Below, piece after piece: positions 3,752-59,790 of a DNA stretch of 64,000 bases. A model generated the notes under the pieces. It saw nothing but the letters and a program-made list of their open reading frames with translations. It was not told where the DNA came from and did not search any database. The translations under genes were made by a program, and so were the position numbers. The stretch is from Solibacillus sp. R5-41. Lineage in GTDB: Bacteria > Bacillota > Bacilli > Bacillales_A > Planococcaceae. Positions within the stretch are counted from its first letter, which is position 1; the number at the start of each line of letters is the position of its first letter. The DNA lies in contig NZ_CP024123.1 of assembly GCF_002736105.1 (NCBI RefSeq), positions 2,720,001 to 2,784,000 of the forward strand. Direction: 5' to 3'.

Positions 3752-3964
3752 TTCTTTCACTCCCCTGCATATTTTATTTCAAATGCAACGTATACCCGTC
3801 TTTCCTCATATCATCAGAATTCTAATTCACAATATTACCCAAATCCATTTTAAGCGTTTCGATTGGTTTGAGTACTTGAGGATACTTCATCAATTTTTCA
3901 AATAAAAAAAATCTAAGGATAATAAAAAATCTTCTGAACAAACTATATTTGGGAGGTGAAATTC

Positions 3965-4321
3965 ATGCCAAATAATAATAACAACCAATACGTTAACCAA
4001 ATCAGACAAAAAATCCAACAAGCAGAAGCTAAAAAAAACCAAGCTTCTGGTCGATTTGCAACTCCGAATACAATGAACTCCATGAACGAAGAATTCGGGA
4101 TTGAGACTGACGTTAACCAAGTAAGACAACAACTCCAACAAGCAGAAGCTAAAAAGAATCAGGCTTCTGGTCAATTTACAACTCCGAATACAATGAACTC
4201 CATGAACGAAGAATTCGGGATTGAGACTGACGTTAACCAAGTAAAACAACAACTCCAACAAGCAGAAGCTAAAAAAAATCAAGCTTCTGGTCGATTCGGA
4301 AATAATACTAACAAAAACTAA
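3965..4321 (+). CDS. gamma-type small acid-soluble spore protein (SspE-like)
   Basis: Gamma-SASPs are Gln/Asn-rich forespore proteins degraded at germination to supply amino acids. The 118-aa product consists of repeats around QQAEAKKNQASG and MNEEFGIETDVNQV; the FGIETD-type block resembles the GPR protease cleavage site of SASPs. GGGAGGTG at 3951-3958 lies six bases before the ATG at 3965. The GTG at 3956 overlaps that site and was rejected. The unit here is 40 residues. Normally a forespore (sigma-G) gene; I could not define a promoter. Class firm, symbol withheld. Confidence 0.85.
   Translation: MPNNNNNQYVNQIRQKIQQAEAKKNQASGRFATPNTMNSMNEEFGIETDVNQVRQQLQQAEAKKNQASGQFTTPNTMNSMNEEFGIETDVNQVKQQLQQAEAKKNQASGRFGNNTNKN
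4016..4305 (+). repeat. 120-bp in-frame direct repeats inside the gamma-SASP gene
   Basis: Units begin at about 4016, 4136 and 4256 (the AGCAGAAGCT block recurs at 4021, 4141 and 4261). Two full units and a third partial one are nearly identical in DNA, which suggests recent duplication or homogenisation of a 40-aa module. Confidence 0.9.
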
Positions 4322-5904: not shown

Positions 5905-6396
5905 TTATTCAGCTTTTACTAAGAATAGAGGTTGACCATATTCTACTAATTGGCCATCTTTAACTAAAACTTCAACAATTTCACCTTTAATTTCAGCTTC
6001 GATCTCGTTGAATAATTTCATTGCTTCAACGATACATACGATTGACTCGTCGCCTACTTTATCGCCCACTTGCACATATGCAGGTGATTCTGGATTTGGA
6101 GATTGATAGAATGTACCAACCATTGGAGAAGTGATTTTGTGTAAGTCTGTTGTGTCAGCTACTGGTGCTGCTGCTACTTCTACTGGTGCTTCCACTTTTG
6201 GAGCTGGTGCTGGTGCTGCTGCTACCGCTACTGGAGCCGGTGCTGCTGCTACTTCTTTTTTAGGTGCTACTACTTCTGTTACCCCACCGTTTTTCTTTAG
6301 CTTTACTTTTGCCCCATCTGCTTCATAAACAAATTCATCAATAGATGATGCATCTACTAATTTAATAATTTCTCTAATTTCTTGAACTTTGAACAT
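5905..6396 (-). CDS. accB: acetyl-CoA carboxylase, biotin carboxyl carrier protein
   Basis: Carries biotin between the biotin carboxylase and carboxyltransferase subunits. The 163-aa product has an N-terminal segment starting [15 protein letters not shown], an Ala/Pro-rich flexible linker (residues about 45-85) and a C-terminal biotinyl domain with the canonical [12 protein letters not shown] motif, whose Lys is biotinylated. The start is supported by AGGGAG upstream. It lies downstream of spoIIIAH as in B. subtilis but has nearly 200 bases of its own upstream DNA, so independent transcription is likely. Confidence 0.97.
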
Positions 6397-6592: not shown

Positions 6593-7129
6593 TCAATAAA
6601 ATGGTTTTATATCAACTGTTACAACTACATTATTATCCAATTCCGTTTTAATTAGGTGAACGATTTCATTCGCCTGTTTTGTAGAAGTTTCATCTGACAT
6701 AACCGTTACGGCTACTTTTTGTTCATCAATACGAACTAATGCGTCGTCATAGCCAAAAGATTTAACAAGCATTTCTAACATCGCTTCAGACGATTCCCGA
6801 TTAATGAGCTGCTCCATTTCATTGAATGCTGCATTTTTTTCTTCTGGCGTATATTCAGCAGATGCCATTTTTTGCTCTAACTGTTCGCGTAATTGACTTC
6901 TTTTATTGCTTAATTCTAAACGCATTTCTTGGAAAAGATCACTTTCTGAGCTTACTGTTTTCGTGATTTCTTGATTGACACCTAAAATATCCGTTTCATT
7001 CAATGTATCATCTGTAAAAATCGTGAGCAGATTTCCTGTATTATTGCTACCAAAGGCATAATATACCCCGATTACTGCCACTAGACTAAATAATGTTAAA
7101 AACCACACTGTACGTTTTTTTACCTTCAC
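6593..7129 (-). CDS. spoIIIAH: stage III sporulation protein AH
   Basis: Mother-cell membrane protein whose YscJ/FliF-like ring-building domain contacts forespore SpoIIQ and joins the two compartments. One N-terminal membrane helix (residues about 8-26), a charged coiled-coil-prone middle (RSQLREQLEQKM...), and a C-terminal domain ending DNNVVVTVDIKPFY, the expected ring fold position. It is 178 aa, shorter than the B. subtilis protein of about 218. Overlaps spoIIIAG by four bases. Confidence 0.9.
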   Translation of the reverse strand: MKVKKRTVWFLTLFSLVAVIGVYYAFGSNNTGNLLTIFTDDTLNETDILGVNQEITKTVSSESDLFQEMRLELSNKRSQLREQLEQKMASAEYTPEEKNAAFNEMEQLINRESSEAMLEMLVKSFGYDDALVRIDEQKVAVTVMSDETSTKQANEIVHLIKTELDNNVVVTVDIKPFY

Positions 7130-7506
7130 TTTTCTTCCTCCTTCATTTGCATAGGGACAATTTGAATGCGATGCGACGGAATTTGCAATGCTGTGCTGAC
7201 CGTAGTTTTCAATAAATTTTTCACAGTCGATTGATGCGCACCTTCTGCAACGATTATGACCCCTGTCATTTTTTGCTCTTTGGAGAGCGTTAAGAAATTG
7301 CCGCTTTCTGTTTCTTGCTCGTAATGAAAATACACTTGAACTTGTCCTACAGACTGAATACCACTTAAAATTTGTGCCAGCTGCTGTTCATCCGTCAATC
7401 GCTCTTGTCCTTTATTTGTTGAATTGAATGTGAATATAAATACTACTATGATTACGACGACGCTCCCAATTAGTAAAAGAGGACGATTCGCTTGTTTTTT
7501 ATCCAC
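7126..7506 (-). CDS. spoIIIAG: stage III sporulation protein AG (short form)
   Basis: Forms a ring in the intermembrane space between mother cell and forespore. One N-terminal helix (LLLIGSVVVIIVVFIF) is followed by a domain with GVIIVAEGAHQSTVKNLL, characteristic of SpoIIIAG. At 126 aa it is much shorter than the roughly 229-aa B. subtilis protein, mainly N-terminally and in the ring insertion. The GTG at 7506 is the best in-frame start found (an in-frame TGA lies upstream), but its G-rich ribosome site is some 16 bases away, so the start is uncertain. Confidence 0.87.
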   Translation of the reverse strand: MDKKQANRPLLLIGSVVVIIVVFIFTFNSTNKGQERLTDEQQLAQILSGIQSVGQVQVYFHYEQETESGNFLTLSKEQKMTGVIIVAEGAHQSTVKNLLKTTVSTALQIPSHRIQIVPMQMKEEEK

Positions 7507-7569
7507 ATGTTTGCGTAATGCGCCCCCCTTTTCATTTTTTCATCTCAATGTATGAGTAGTTTTGATACT

Positions 7570-7704
7570 TTATGCAAATAGGGACAAGAATAAATGAGAG
7601 ACTGAAATATAAAGTGCTAGTTTTACATACACTTGCCACTCCTTTTCTTCTACAAAAAACAATAGACTACTACCGAGCAAAACAATGAGAAGTATATCGA
7701 TCAT
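7570..7704 (-). CDS. spoIIIAF: stage III sporulation protein AF, 44-residue form
   Basis: The ATG at 7704 overlaps the spoIIIAE stop (ATGA) and is preceded by GGAGGT, so it should be translated. The product MIDILLIVLLGSSLLFF...LFLSLFA is 44 aa with two hydrophobic segments around a short charged loop. It sits exactly where spoIIIAF belongs and resembles only its N-terminal hairpin; B. subtilis SpoIIIAF is about 206 aa. No SpoIIIAF-like C-terminal sequence follows in any frame before spoIIIAG. The identity rests on position plus membrane pattern, so it is inferred. Confidence 0.6.
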   Translation of the reverse strand: MIDILLIVLLGSSLLFFVEEKEWQVYVKLALYISVSHLFLSLFA

Positions 7705-8612
7705 GTGTTACCTCCTATCGAAAGCTGCATTAAAACGATACATAACATCACAATAAAAATAATTGAAAAACCAAGCAATAATGCGACGGCACACAGCACC
7801 ATCAAGGTTTTTCCTACATCGTCAAATAGACTACTTATCCGCGTATTCGAAAAAGGTTCCACTAGCGCCCCAATAAACTTAAACATGAGTGCATGCAATA
7901 ATAGAGTCATTGCAGGATAAAATGCTGCACTCCAAACAATCGCCAAAAAGCTAATCCCGAAAATGGTAGAAATAGTTGATTGTGTCTTTTGAAATAAAGA
8001 CAGCCCTTCTACGATTAAATTCCCAATGAGCGGAATATTTTGTTCCACTAATTTTTTTATTGGTGATTTCACCGCATCATTTAACTGAAAAAATGCCACT
8101 CCTGAAAAAGATAATATTGACGTTAGTGCTAATACGGAAGCAACAATAATACTTAAAGCAGAGGACCGAATGAGATCTGCCGCTTTTGAAAATGAAATAG
8201 CGGGATAAATTTTCGTACAAACATCCAAAAATAACGCAATCAAAAGGGAAGGAATTAAAAGTTTTGTGCAAATAAATAGTAAAAAATGAATAACCATTAT
8301 GATGACTGGATTCCAAGCAATAAAGGTAAAAATCGTTGAAACAGCAATGAGCATGGTCGAAATAATCGGAATCATTAGGATAAAAAAGCTTTGAAGTACC
8401 GTAATCAGCTCACTTAATACGAGGAATGCATCCATAATTTTTTGTGCGAACATCGCGATAAAGAGGAGTATAAATAATTGTTCAATAATCGCCGTTTGCT
8501 GTGGTATGACAGCAATTAATAGTAAATAAAGGAAAATGTAGAGAGCTGTGAACGCGATTGATGTAAGAATCGACTGAATCGGCTGTGAAAACATTGACAG
8601 GAAATAATCCAT
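7701..8612 (-). CDS. spoIIIAE: stage III sporulation protein AE (N-terminally short)
   Basis: Polytopic mother-cell membrane protein of the SpoIIIA-SpoIIQ channel, permease-like. The 303 residues carry about seven to eight hydrophobic helices, and the order of loops (SFFILMIPIISTML, WNPVIIMVIHFLLF, FYPAMTLLLHALMFK) follows B. subtilis SpoIIIAE. The N-terminal signal peptide and about 90 residues of external domain of the 399-aa homologue are absent. The start overlaps the spoIIIAD stop (TAATG), so no longer N-terminus is available upstream. Confidence 0.88.
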   Translation of the reverse strand: MDYFLSMFSQPIQSILTSIAFTALYIFLYLLLIAVIPQQTAIIEQLFILLFIAMFAQKIMDAFLVLSELITVLQSFFILMIPIISTMLIAVSTIFTFIAWNPVIIMVIHFLLFICTKLLIPSLLIALFLDVCTKIYPAISFSKAADLIRSSALSIIVASVLALTSILSFSGVAFFQLNDAVKSPIKKLVEQNIPLIGNLIVEGLSLFQKTQSTISTIFGISFLAIVWSAAFYPAMTLLLHALMFKFIGALVEPFSNTRISSLFDDVGKTLMVLCAVALLLGFSIIFIVMLCIVLMQLSIGGNT

Positions 8613-8989
8613 TATTGTAACCTTTCTAGCAATTCCATCACAGATTTAAATGCTGGTTGCAATTCATTGAACCAATACCCAACTAACGTTAATCGAATGG
8701 AAAGTTTCACAACTGTAGAAAATGCTTCATATTCCATTTGATCTAATAGTTCACAAAACAATTCACTTAAAATCAATAAAAATGCGGTAAATAAAAGCCC
8801 TTTTGCATATGGCGCTTTGTTGAACGTTTCTTCAAGCACTTGCCAAAACGGAATTAACTGTCCTCGAACAACGAATTGAACAAATATAAAAAAAAAGACG
8901 ATGAGAATAATCGAATGGAGCCTGTCCATAGATTGTTTAATCAATTGAAGGAGCAATATAAAGACGACACTCGCAAATAATATACTCAT
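8612..8989 (-). CDS. spoIIIAD: stage III sporulation protein AD
   Basis: Small membrane subunit of the SpoIIIA complex. The 125 aa have about four hydrophobic helices with the conserved acidic and charged loops (LILSELFCELLDQMEYEA) of SpoIIIAD. Directly abuts spoIIIAC and overlaps spoIIIAE by one base, so translation is coupled. Length is close to the B. subtilis protein of about 133. Confidence 0.9.
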   Translation of the reverse strand: MSILFASVVFILLLQLIKQSMDRLHSIILIVFFFIFVQFVVRGQLIPFWQVLEETFNKAPYAKGLLFTAFLLILSELFCELLDQMEYEAFSTVVKLSIRLTLVGYWFNELQPAFKSVMELLERLQ

Positions 8990-9199
8990 CTAACTAATGA
9001 CAGATAACCATTGAAAGAATACGACGATTTCGTTAAAAAATAACCGTAAAAATCGTATTAATTCTACTGTTATATAAAGATACGCTACAAAGAATAAAAA
9101 AAATGAAAACTCCTTTTTCCCTAGCTGTTCAAAGAATATATGAAGAAGTGCTATTACTAAACCTACTCCTGCTACTCGAAGCACATCTTGCAATTCCAA
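8990..9199 (-). CDS. spoIIIAC: stage III sporulation protein AC
   Basis: 69-aa membrane protein with two helices (VAGVGLVIALLHIFFEQLGK, then FFLFFVAYLYITVELIR), closely matching SpoIIIAC, including the V-x-G-V-G-x-V start. TTG start at 9199 with GGGGGGAGGG six bases upstream. It is the first gene of the operon here. In B. subtilis spoIIIAA and spoIIIAB come before it, but upstream DNA holds only a dispersed repeat and a nitronate monooxygenase gene. Confidence 0.92.
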   Translation of the reverse strand: MELQDVLRVAGVGLVIALLHIFFEQLGKKEFSFFLFFVAYLYITVELIRFLRLFFNEIVVFFQWLSVIS

Positions 9200-9215
9200 A
9201 AAAGCCCTCCCCCCT

Positions 9216-9245
9216 TACCGAAACTATATGCGTCCTAAATGAATT
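9216..9245 (-). promoter_or_regulatory. possible promoter of the short spoIIIA operon
   Basis: On the minus strand CATATAGT (9223-9230) resembles the sigma-E -10 consensus CATACAAT and lies just before the ribosome site of spoIIIAC. The -35 match is poor. It would let the operon be transcribed without spoIIIAA and AB. Tentative. Confidence 0.3.
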
Positions 9246-9260
9246 TAAGCACTTTTGATT

Positions 9261-9500
9261 TAACTTGCTTCAGCAAAAATTCCTCACTTCTAAAGTGGGG
9301 CGAGGAATGCCAAATTTGCACTGAATTCAGTGTTGATTAAACTCTGGCTAAGAACGCTGCGTCCTGCAGCAACGCCTGAGTGACCAACATAGTATTGGTC
9401 CAAAACCCCAGCGAATGTTACAGATTATTAAGGGGAGTTTTCCGAGCGGAAGCGGACTCGAAAAGAATCTGGACAAGAGTTATCCAAAGCGTAATTGATT
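9261..9500 (+). repeat. dispersed intergenic repeat, family R1 (full copy)
   Basis: About 240 bp starting TAACTTGCTTCAGCA and ending AAAGCGTAATTGATT. Internal blocks shared with other copies are GTGGGG, GAATGCCAA, CTGAGTGACCAACAT, a GGGGAGTTTTCCGAGC...CTCGAAAAGAATCTGGAC hairpin region and the end block. Other copies: 10687-10820, 37683-37757, about 42030-42095, 58795-58979 (inverted) and 59481-59685 (inverted). It occupies the position where spoIIIAA and AB are missing. Confidence 0.85.
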
Positions 9501-9515
9501 GAAATGCGCAAGTAA

Positions 9516-9553
9516 AAACGCAGAAATGAGATATCCATTTCTGCGTTTTTTCG
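9516..9553. terminator. bidirectional terminator downstream of the nitronate monooxygenase gene
   Basis: AAACGCAGAAATG / CATTTCTGCGTTT, 13-bp perfect stem with a 7-base loop and T or A runs on both sides, directly after the minus-strand gene. Confidence 0.88.
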
Positions 9554-9560
9554 ATAATAT

Positions 9561-10571
9561 TCAACTAACTGAAGTTAACTCATCAACAATCTCTTGAACG
9601 GAAGCTTCTTTAGCTAAATAACTATTTTCCCCCATCCAAAGAGATAAATATTCTGGTCTATTTTGCTTAGCACTTTCTTTGCGAATCGCGAGCGTTAAAT
9701 AGTGCTGGACGGGATAAGGTGCGACAACCGCATCCTTTAGCTTTTCTGTAAATTCATTTTTTAAGCCCCGCGCATATTTGCCTGTAAAAGCTTTTGTCAA
9801 AGTGGTTGCCTTTTGCTCCGACTCTAACACCGCACTTTTATGCACATTGCTTACCTCACACTCATGTGCCGTTAATAAAGCTGTTCCAATTTGGACCGCT
9901 GTTGCGCCCATTTCCTGCATTTCTTTCACATGCTCAGCCGTCATAATGCCACCTGCTGCGATGCAATTAATCGACACATTTTTAAGCACATCTCGTAGCA
10001 ATTGTTTTGTCGGAATCAATTCAATCGGATCTGTAAATGAGCCGCGATGTCCACCCGCTTCACATCCTTGTACAACTACCGCATCTAAGCCCGCAGTTTC
10101 AACTGCAATCGCTTCTTCCACAGTAGTTGCAGTTCCGATTAAATAAATGCCATGTGCTTTCAGACGAGTAATTATTTCATCATTTGGAAGACCGAATGTA
10201 AACGAGCAAATTTTAACATCTTCATCGATGATCGCTTGTACTTGTCCATTAAAAACTTCTGTGGAAACAACGCGCTGTGTATTGGATACACCGAGTTCCT
10301 CATAAAAAGGTTGCAATGCGACACGCGCATCTTGTAATACCGAAATGTCAATTTTCGGCTCATCTTGGACAAATAAGTTTACACAAAATCTTTTATCCGT
10401 GAGCGCTTTTACTTGCTGTATGAATTCCTTTGTTTCAGCACCATTTAAATAGCCTGCTCCGATCGATCCTAATATACCCGCTTCACAACATGCCGCTACA
10501 AATTTTGGTGATGTGACACCTGCCATCGGTGCTTGAATCATTGGTTTTCTTAAGGCGAAATTTTGCATCAT
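9561..10571 (-). CDS. nitronate monooxygenase (2-nitropropane dioxygenase family)
   Basis: FMN-dependent TIM-barrel enzyme oxidising alkyl nitronates; relatives include the enoyl-ACP reductase FabK. Typical blocks are QAPMAGVTSPKFVAA at the N-terminus, GSIGAGYLNG, CEAGGHRGSF (catalytic His and phosphate region) and a GGIMTAEHVKEM...VQIGTALLT FMN-binding stretch. AAGGAG precedes the ATG at 10571; the GTG at 10580 is too close to it. The product is 336 aa. It sits between efp and spoIIIAC, flanked by R1 repeats, which looks like an insertion into the conserved efp-spoIIIA order. Confidence 0.9.
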   Translation of the reverse strand: MMQNFALRKPMIQAPMAGVTSPKFVAACCEAGILGSIGAGYLNGAETKEFIQQVKALTDKRFCVNLFVQDEPKIDISVLQDARVALQPFYEELGVSNTQRVVSTEVFNGQVQAIIDEDVKICSFTFGLPNDEIITRLKAHGIYLIGTATTVEEAIAVETAGLDAVVVQGCEAGGHRGSFTDPIELIPTKQLLRDVLKNVSINCIAAGGIMTAEHVKEMQEMGATAVQIGTALLTAHECEVSNVHKSAVLESEQKATTLTKAFTGKYARGLKNEFTEKLKDAVVAPYPVQHYLTLAIRKESAKQNRPEYLSLWMGENSYLAKEASVQEIVDELTSVS

Positions 10572-10686
10572 CAAACTCACTCCTTTATGTAATTATACTT
10601 TATTTTTTACATATTTGGATATAATGTAGGAATGTTTTCTTCCCTTAGTGCATCTTCATAATGTTAGATTAAATTTTGTTTCTAAT

Positions 10687-10820
10687 TTAACTTGCTTCAG
10701 CAGGAGTCCTTCATTTACTTCCGTGGGGAATGAATGCCAAGTATGCCCTCAATTCAATGAAGGTTCAAACGCCTGCTGAACAGGGAATCTCAGGCTAAGA
10801 ACGTCGAGGCATAATTGATA
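10687..10820 (+). repeat. dispersed intergenic repeat, family R1 (internally deleted copy)
   Basis: Begins TTAACTTGCTTCAGCAGGAGTC, keeps GTGGGGAATGAATGCCAA and the ATTCAATG...GGTTCAAAC block, then jumps to the end block GTCGAGGCATAATTGAT. The middle is missing compared with 9261-9500. Confidence 0.85.
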
Positions 10821-10864: not shown

Positions 10865-11422
10865 TTAAGCACGTGAAACGTATGAACCTTCTGTTGTGTT
10901 TATGATTAATTTGTCGCCTTGGTTTACGAAGAATGGTACGTTTACCATTAAACCTGTTTGCATTTTTGCAGGTTTTGAACCGCCTGAAGCTGTATCGCCT
11001 TTAATACCTGGCTCAGTTTCTGCTACTTCAAGAACAACTGTGTTTGGTAATTCAAGACCTAACATTTCACCTTGGAAAGATTGGATATGAATTTCCATGT
11101 TTTCTAATAAGTATAATAACTCATCTTTAATTTGTGCTTCAGCTAAAGTTGTTTGATCATAAGACTCCATGTCCATGAATACATGCTCGTCACCTTGTGC
11201 ATATAAATATTGCATTTTACGGTTTTCGATCATTGCTTTTTCTACTTTTTCACCCGCGCGGAACGTTTTTTCTTGTACGTTACCGTTACGTAGGTTACGT
11301 AATTTTGAGCGTACGAAAGCAGCACCTTTACCTGGTTTTACGTGTTGGAATTCTAGTACGCGGAATAAGTTACCGTCAACGATAATCGTTAAACCCGTAC
11401 GGAAATCGTTTACTGAGATCAT
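10865..11422 (-). CDS. efp: translation elongation factor P
   Basis: Relieves ribosomes stalled at polyproline stretches. The 185-aa, three-domain EF-P has the KOW-like N-terminus ([18 protein letters not shown]), the modification loop [14 protein letters not shown], the OB domain and the C-terminal [16 protein letters not shown] signature. Full length. GGAGG lies eight bases upstream of the ATG. Downstream of papA and aroQ in the same direction, as in B. subtilis. Confidence 0.97.
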
Positions 11423-42029: not shown

Positions 42030-42095
42030 CCTCTCCTTGGAATTGAATGCCAAATTCACACTTAATTCAGTGTGAGTTCAAACTCCTGCTGACCT
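42030..42095 (+). repeat. dispersed intergenic repeat, family R1 (fragment)
   Basis: Shares GAATTGAATGCCAAATTC and ACTTAATTCAGTGTGAGTTCAAACTCC with the left half of the other R1 copies. The flanking end blocks are missing. Confidence 0.6.
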
Positions 42096-58794: not shown

Positions 58795-58979
58795 TCAATT
58801 ACGCCTCGGCGTATTTGTGTCCAGATTTTTTTCGAGCTCGCTCGAAAAAAAATCTGTGACATCCGCCGGGGCATTAACTTGATTCAGCTGGGTTTTGAAC
58901 CCACATTGAATAAAATTGCATATTTGGCATTCATCCCCCACTTATACAATTAAGGGACTTCTGCTGAAACAAGTTAACT
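58795..58979 (-). repeat. dispersed intergenic repeat, family R1 (inverted copy)
   Basis: Read on the minus strand: GTTAACTTGTTTCAGCAGAAGTC, GTGGGGGATGAATGCCAA, a GGGTTCAAAACCC block, CGAGCGAGCTCG palindrome core with AAATCTGGAC, end block GCCGAGGCGTAATTGA. Fills the lipM-yqhL intergenic space. Confidence 0.88.
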
Positions 58980-59478: not shown

Positions 59479-59480
59479 TA

Positions 59481-59685
59481 TCAATCAAGCCTCGGCTAAC
59501 TCTTGTCCAGATTTCTTCGAGCCTGCTCGAAAAGCTCCTTTTAAAAATCTATGACAGCCGCCAGGAGCATTGGGCCAACACGATGTTGGTCACTCAGGCG
59601 GGGTTTGAGCCCTACTGAATTAAGTGCTGATTTAGTATTTATCCCCCACATATAGAAGGAATGACTTCTGCTGAAGCAAGTTTAA
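59481..59685 (-). repeat. dispersed intergenic repeat, family R1 (inverted, with the CCAACAC palindrome block)
   Basis: Minus strand: ACTTGCTTCAGCAGAAGTC, GTGGGGGATAAATAC, GAGTGACCAACATCGTGTTGG, GGCGGCTGTCATAGATT, GGAGCTTTTCGAGCAGGCTCGAA, ATCTGGAC and end block GCCGAGGCTTGATTGA. The palindromic CCAACA-CG-TGTTGG block is shared with family R2. Confidence 0.88.
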
Positions 59686-59790
59686 TTTGAGTTTCTTCTA
59701 TTATACACGAAGCGGTTAGAAGTCAAATAATTAACATCTAGTAAAACTGGACAATTACAACAATAATAGAGACAAAGGATGGTTATTCAC

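Follow-up and report, generated by a model that had tools for sequence, protein, structure and literature searches.

Round-spore soil bacteria (Solibacillus, Lysinibacillus, Sporosarcina and their relatives) probably build a trimmed version of the mother cell-spore 'feeding tube' that dispenses with the motor found indispensable in the textbook species. In the genome of Solibacillus sp. R5-41, a single 4.28-Mb contig with an estimated completeness of 99.99%, the spoIIIA operon begins directly with spoIIIAC, and whole-genome searches recognised neither the ATPase SpoIIIAA nor the membrane protein SpoIIIAB. We put at roughly 70% the probability that the SpoIIIA-SpoIIQ (A-Q) complex specified by this operon is reduced but functional, and that it became fixed in this form, lacking the SpoIIIAA/AB motor module, in the ancestor of the Planococcaceae/Caryophanaceae.

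The bare gene-absence pattern is already known. The absence of SpoIIIAA, SpoIIIAB and SpoIIIAF has been published (PMC3533761, PMC7924749): in 2012 Galperin and colleagues noted these genes as missing from L. sphaericus C3-41 but placed little trust in that genome (PMC3533761), and in 2021 spore formers without AA, AB and AF were listed (PMC7924749). The AA and AB gaps of C3-41 are real, because the same gene set occurs in strain 2362 and in dozens of other genomes. Within the open-licence literature searched, we found no description of five points reported below: the gene for the AF hairpin, the promoter gained by the operon, the coordinated trimming of domains, the selection test and the exact co-inheritance.

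Layout of the spoIIIA locus and its trimmed genes

The window, that is, the whole 64-kb stretch of DNA analysed, carries on its minus strand efp, a nitronate monooxygenase gene, a repeat, spoIIIAC, AD, AE, AF, AG and AH (from 9199 down to 6593) and accB, in that order. spoIIIAC (8990..9199; 69 aa, TTG start) is now the first gene of the operon; its matches to TIGR02848 (2.5e-7) and PF06686 (9e-4) both fall under the curated cut-offs, and the gene is kept in all 79 complete named loci of the family. The next gene, spoIIIAD (8612..8989; 125 aa), was assigned by its position between AC and AE and by family-wide conservation. Taken alone it gave zero Pfam or NCBIfam matches, which fits earlier reports of AD as 'missing'. 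It is followed by spoIIIAE (7701..8612; 303 aa; PF09546, 3.9e-23), a mini-spoIIIAF (7570..7704; 44 aa), spoIIIAG (7126..7506; 126 aa; TIGR02830, 2.1e-13; PDB 5wc3 SpoIIIAG, E 9.4e-12) and spoIIIAH (6593..7129; 178 aa; PF12685, 1.9e-24; PDB 3uz0/3tuf SpoIIIAH, E ~1e-29), with accB (5905-6396) flanking the AH end. The core membrane genes AC, AD (by position and conservation only) and AE thus stand in order beside accB and efp, and the ring-building AG and AH are both present. The usual AC-to-AH order reported in the preliminary description of this DNA holds, with all six genes on the minus strand.

Between spoIIIAC and efp (10865-11422), that description had seen only a dispersed repeat and the nitronate monooxygenase gene (9561..10580), and this was borne out. 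The repeat (9255..9560), which lies 5' of the operon promoter and has no part in the mechanism proposed here, was confirmed, and partial copies of it occur at 58917-58977, 59480-59686, 10685-10759, 276-334 and 42045-42073 of the window; neither AA nor AB lies beside the operon. The nitronate monooxygenase gene is found at the locus in only part of the family, and in several other genera the spacer between efp and AC measures 110-200 bp, so that both this gene and the repeat seem to have been inserted later. The nitronate monooxygenase was rejected as a functional stand-in for AA/AB, since it is missing from the locus in many genera.

AE, AG and AH had all been called shorter than usual, which is correct for AE and AG; AH, at 178 aa, has nearly the length of the shorter AHs of the outgroups (179-190 aa), and its ring-building domain is intact and full. 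AE (303 aa vs ~390-410 aa in outgroups) lacks the signal peptide and the ~70-aa exported N-terminal segment of outgroup AE. Its profile alignment spans outgroup columns 93-377 of 391, and in the outgroups the missing first ~90 columns comprise a charged segment as well as a helix that resembles a signal peptide; a structure model of AE was all-helical, at moderate confidence only. AG (126 aa vs ~206-241 aa) consists of a plain ring-building motif (alpha-beta-beta-alpha-beta) and lacks the insert of the B. subtilis-type protein. The alignment gap sits at the insert of outgroup AG and of B. subtilis AG (5wc3), which we take to be the 'beta-triangle' of 5wc3, and the structure model likewise showed the bare unit, with 5wc3 as its top Foldseek match at modest TM-scores. 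GerM was not found in the genome, and in the family it gave a weak single match in only three members. The forespore partner is present: a SpoIIQ gene adjoining spoIID matched NF053738 at 1.1e-50, below the curated cut-off, and spoIID and spoIIID are also in the genome. This SpoIIQ is short (218 aa; L104:1156-1812), and the forespore side may have been trimmed too.

AF had been described as lying in its normal place in the operon. The position stands, but the gene encodes only 44 aa, vs 206-262 aa in outgroups, and comprises only the N-terminal transmembrane hairpin of SpoIIIAF: by hhalign, the mini-AF profile aligned to columns 1-49 of the 226 of full-length outgroup AF (probability 93.8%), and the soluble ring domain is missing. 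Mini-AF is translationally coupled to AE, its start overlapping the AE stop codon as ATGA. A hydrophobicity screen recovered an ORF of 44-59 aa in 40 of 41 loci, and the remaining locus (L077) has a 54-aa ORF at the same place that falls just under the screen; with a looser screen that admitted non-standard start codons, an ORF of this type was found in all 79 complete named loci. In Rummeliibacillus and Psychrobacillus (L061-L063, L075, L166-L168) the longest mini-AF frame starts with ATA or GTG at the AE stop, so that the start codon is a putative one. The idea that the AF ring domain has been detached and lies elsewhere was rejected, as PF09581 had no match in the R5-41 genome and one marginal over-cut-off match among 151 family genomes, in a genome (G072) with its spoIIIA operon elsewhere on the contig.

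A -10 box, CATATAGT (9223..9230, minus strand), lies 23 nt 5' of the AC start codon. Boxes of this type, CATAYANT, are sigma-E-type by the general sigma-E consensus. Across the family loci the box lies 18-27 nt 5' of AC and matches at seven or more of eight positions in 38 of 41 loci, perfectly in 31, and in 69 of the 79 named loci at that same threshold. Within the same stretch of 15 outgroup AC genes the match was at most 6/8 (0/15 reaching 7/8), and a perfect match occurred in 0.5% of shuffles. A weak -35-like GCTTAAA is found at 9244-9250, the sigma-E -35 being only loosely matched in the window. The occurrence of the box before AC in the family and not in the outgroups suggests that the operon acquired a promoter of its own, and from the conserved motif we infer that spoIIIAC-AH would be expressed in the mother cell under sigma-E.

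Distribution of SpoIIIAA and SpoIIIAB in the family

Whole-genome HMM searches of the closed R5-41 genome detected neither SpoIIIAA (PF19568) nor SpoIIIAB (PF09548). A first sample of 37 family members likewise yielded no SpoIIIAA, nor did 250 genomes of the order, all of them Planococcaceae/Caryophanaceae as far as listed, and SpoIIIAB did not exceed the cut-off in any of 151 family genomes, 114 of which carry SpoIIIAE. In a sample of 280 genomes from across this one class, all 178 SpoIIIAE-positive genomes outside the family carry SpoIIIAA and all 18 inside it are without; the exceptions to this pairing were one sub-cut-off AE match (G491) and one AA-only genome (G293). Within this sample, loss of AA is a sharply bounded trait of the family lineage.

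The operon was located in a contig scan with an AH alignment, a single-sequence AE query having found nothing. Every one of the 79 complete named loci, which include those of L. sphaericus 2362, L. fusiformis and Ureibacillus thermosphaericus, reads AC-AD-AE-miniAF-AG-AH without AA or AB, and the same trimmed form was found across 13 genera. A comparison with related Planococcaceae, which the preliminary description had proposed together with a genome-wide search for the two genes, accordingly shows the same loss throughout. As judged from recognisable homologues, the missing AA and AB reflect loss rather than relocation, family-wide. AE itself has diverged to ~80 bits, so the search could miss an AB that has diverged strongly and lies elsewhere in the genome.

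Selection, co-inheritance with sporulation and competing explanations

Within the genus, all six operon genes have median dN/dS values of 0.03-0.20, similar to those of efp, accB and the neighbouring oxidase gene. The medians were 0.03 for AC, 0.04 for AE, 0.07 for mini-AF, 0.20 for AG and 0.12 for AH, with 0.09 for each of the comparison genes efp and accB; the pairs are not independent, and the values are descriptive. SpoIVA accompanies SpoIIIAE in 114 of 114 AE-positive family genomes. Spherical or ellipsoidal endospores are described for genera with the operon (PMC6971209). Family members without intact SpoIVA are also without the spoIIIA operon, and three extra SpoIVA matches (G016, G075, G090) are fragments or contain internal stops, all in genomes without AE. 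Elsewhere in the window, at 3956-4321, a 121-aa ORF consists of near-identical ~35-40-aa repeats (QLQQAEAKKNQASG...NTMNSMNEEFGIETDVNQV); it resembles a gamma-type small acid-soluble spore protein and may belong to that family.

The loss of AA and AB, of the projecting domains and of GerM from a complex with a core under strong selection argues for a complex that no longer needs its motor module. We propose that a type II/IV secretion-like module, composed of the ATPase SpoIIIAA and SpoIIIAB, its GspF-like partner in the membrane, was removed from between efp and AC, presumably in a single event, and that several parts projecting into the intermembrane space went as well, namely the N-terminal segment of AE, the ring domain of AF, the insert of AG and GerM. 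A putative sigma-E-type promoter now lies directly 5' of AC. The remainder would be a membrane core of AC, AD, AE and the AF hairpin with plain ring proteins AG and AH facing SpoIIQ. Such a core would most likely work without energy input: as a passive conduit it would let supplies reach the forespore down concentration gradients, and as a septal tether it would keep the two membranes joined; B. subtilis SpoIIIAA would then assemble or gate a larger complex rather than serve as an indispensable pump. Because the co-lost domains disappeared together, they are predicted to work together. The stronger form of this proposal, in which the A-Q complex is a motor-free passive conduit family-wide and AA, AB, the AF ring, the AG insert, the AE N-terminus and GerM formed one dispensable module lost together, is tentative, its chances being somewhat short of even.

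The transport role might instead have been lost, leaving only the engulfment or septal tether (zipper) function with SpoIIQ. Retention of SpoIIQ and the standing of AH as the best conserved ring protein would suit such a complex; however, purifying selection in the operon is strongest on AC, AD and AE, for which no tether role is known, and we regard this alternative as unlikely. Our main rival explanation is that a non-homologous ATPase or membrane protein from elsewhere took over the role of AA/AB, so that the complex continues to be energised. In favour of this, B. subtilis cannot do without AA, and our searches would pick up only proteins related to AA (PF19568) or to the T2SSE family. Yet the efp-AC gap, short as it is in several genera, holds nothing conserved across the family, and AB, the AF ring domain and GerM disappeared alongside AA, which looks more as if a whole module had been taken out than as if one part had been exchanged; a substitute from another ATPase family therefore seems to us quite improbable. 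Replacement by a T2SSE relative was rejected, as the sole T2SSE-family ATPase in the genome is comGA, which is split by an insertion. This competence gene lies outside the window (G000:C1:2814223-2835708; L108, L109) and is interrupted by ~20 kb; the reading frame of its 5' portion continues into a 671-aa ORF, tyrosine-recombinase-like as assigned by eye, which suggests that a mobile element inserted in comGA.

The shrinking genes, together with the complete loss of AE and SpoIVA in some genera of the family, could also be taken for an operon decaying in lineages heading towards loss of sporulation. This is contradicted by the dN/dS values, and the recurrence of one trimmed form in 13 genera, the conserved promoter-like motif, the unbroken association with SpoIVA and the known spore formers among the carriers leave it very little probability. 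Relocation of AA and AB, the other option raised in the preliminary description, is rejected with near certainty for recognisable copies by the negative searches of this genome and of the family. A functional complex in a lineage without the ATPase, as that description had also considered, is favoured by the conservation of the operon, the purifying selection on it and its co-inheritance with SpoIVA.

Comparison with known A-Q complexes

In B. subtilis, deletion of AA, AB, AE or AG lowers sporulation to 0.001-0.003% (PMC12720343), and mutations in the Walker A and B motifs of AA prevent sigma-G activity and reduce spore formation as a null mutation does (PMC2703783). A passive role of the complex would therefore require a lineage-specific change. 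The role of the A-Q complex, and whether SpoIIIAA drives transport through it, are disputed (PMC12720343). A stripped operon in a genuine spore-forming family offers a natural minimal complex in which the need for the motor is directly testable.

The Solibacillus system resembles the B. subtilis SpoIIIAA-AH:SpoIIQ complex in its AC-AH order, its synteny with efp and accB, the ring folds of AG and AH, and the presence of SpoIIQ. It differs in having no AA, AB or GerM, in an AF reduced to the membrane hairpin, in an AG without the insert and an AE without signal peptide and N-terminal segment, and in the promoter motif placed directly before AC. For the C. difficile SpoIIIA-SpoIIQ system a much weaker need for ATP hydrolysis by AA has been reported, a Walker B mutant being mildly affected with a ~3-fold defect (PMC4605598); C. 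difficile keeps AA, whereas here the gene is gone. The published loss of AA, AB, AF, SpoIIM, SpoIIB and GerM in spore-forming Planococcaceae/Lysinibacillus (PMC3533761, PMC7924749) is the same absence pattern as that seen here. In those accounts AF is called absent, whereas a 44-59-aa hairpin gene is present in the genomes analysed here, which corrects the record: SpoIIIAF is not absent, and its membrane hairpin is the part kept by selection.
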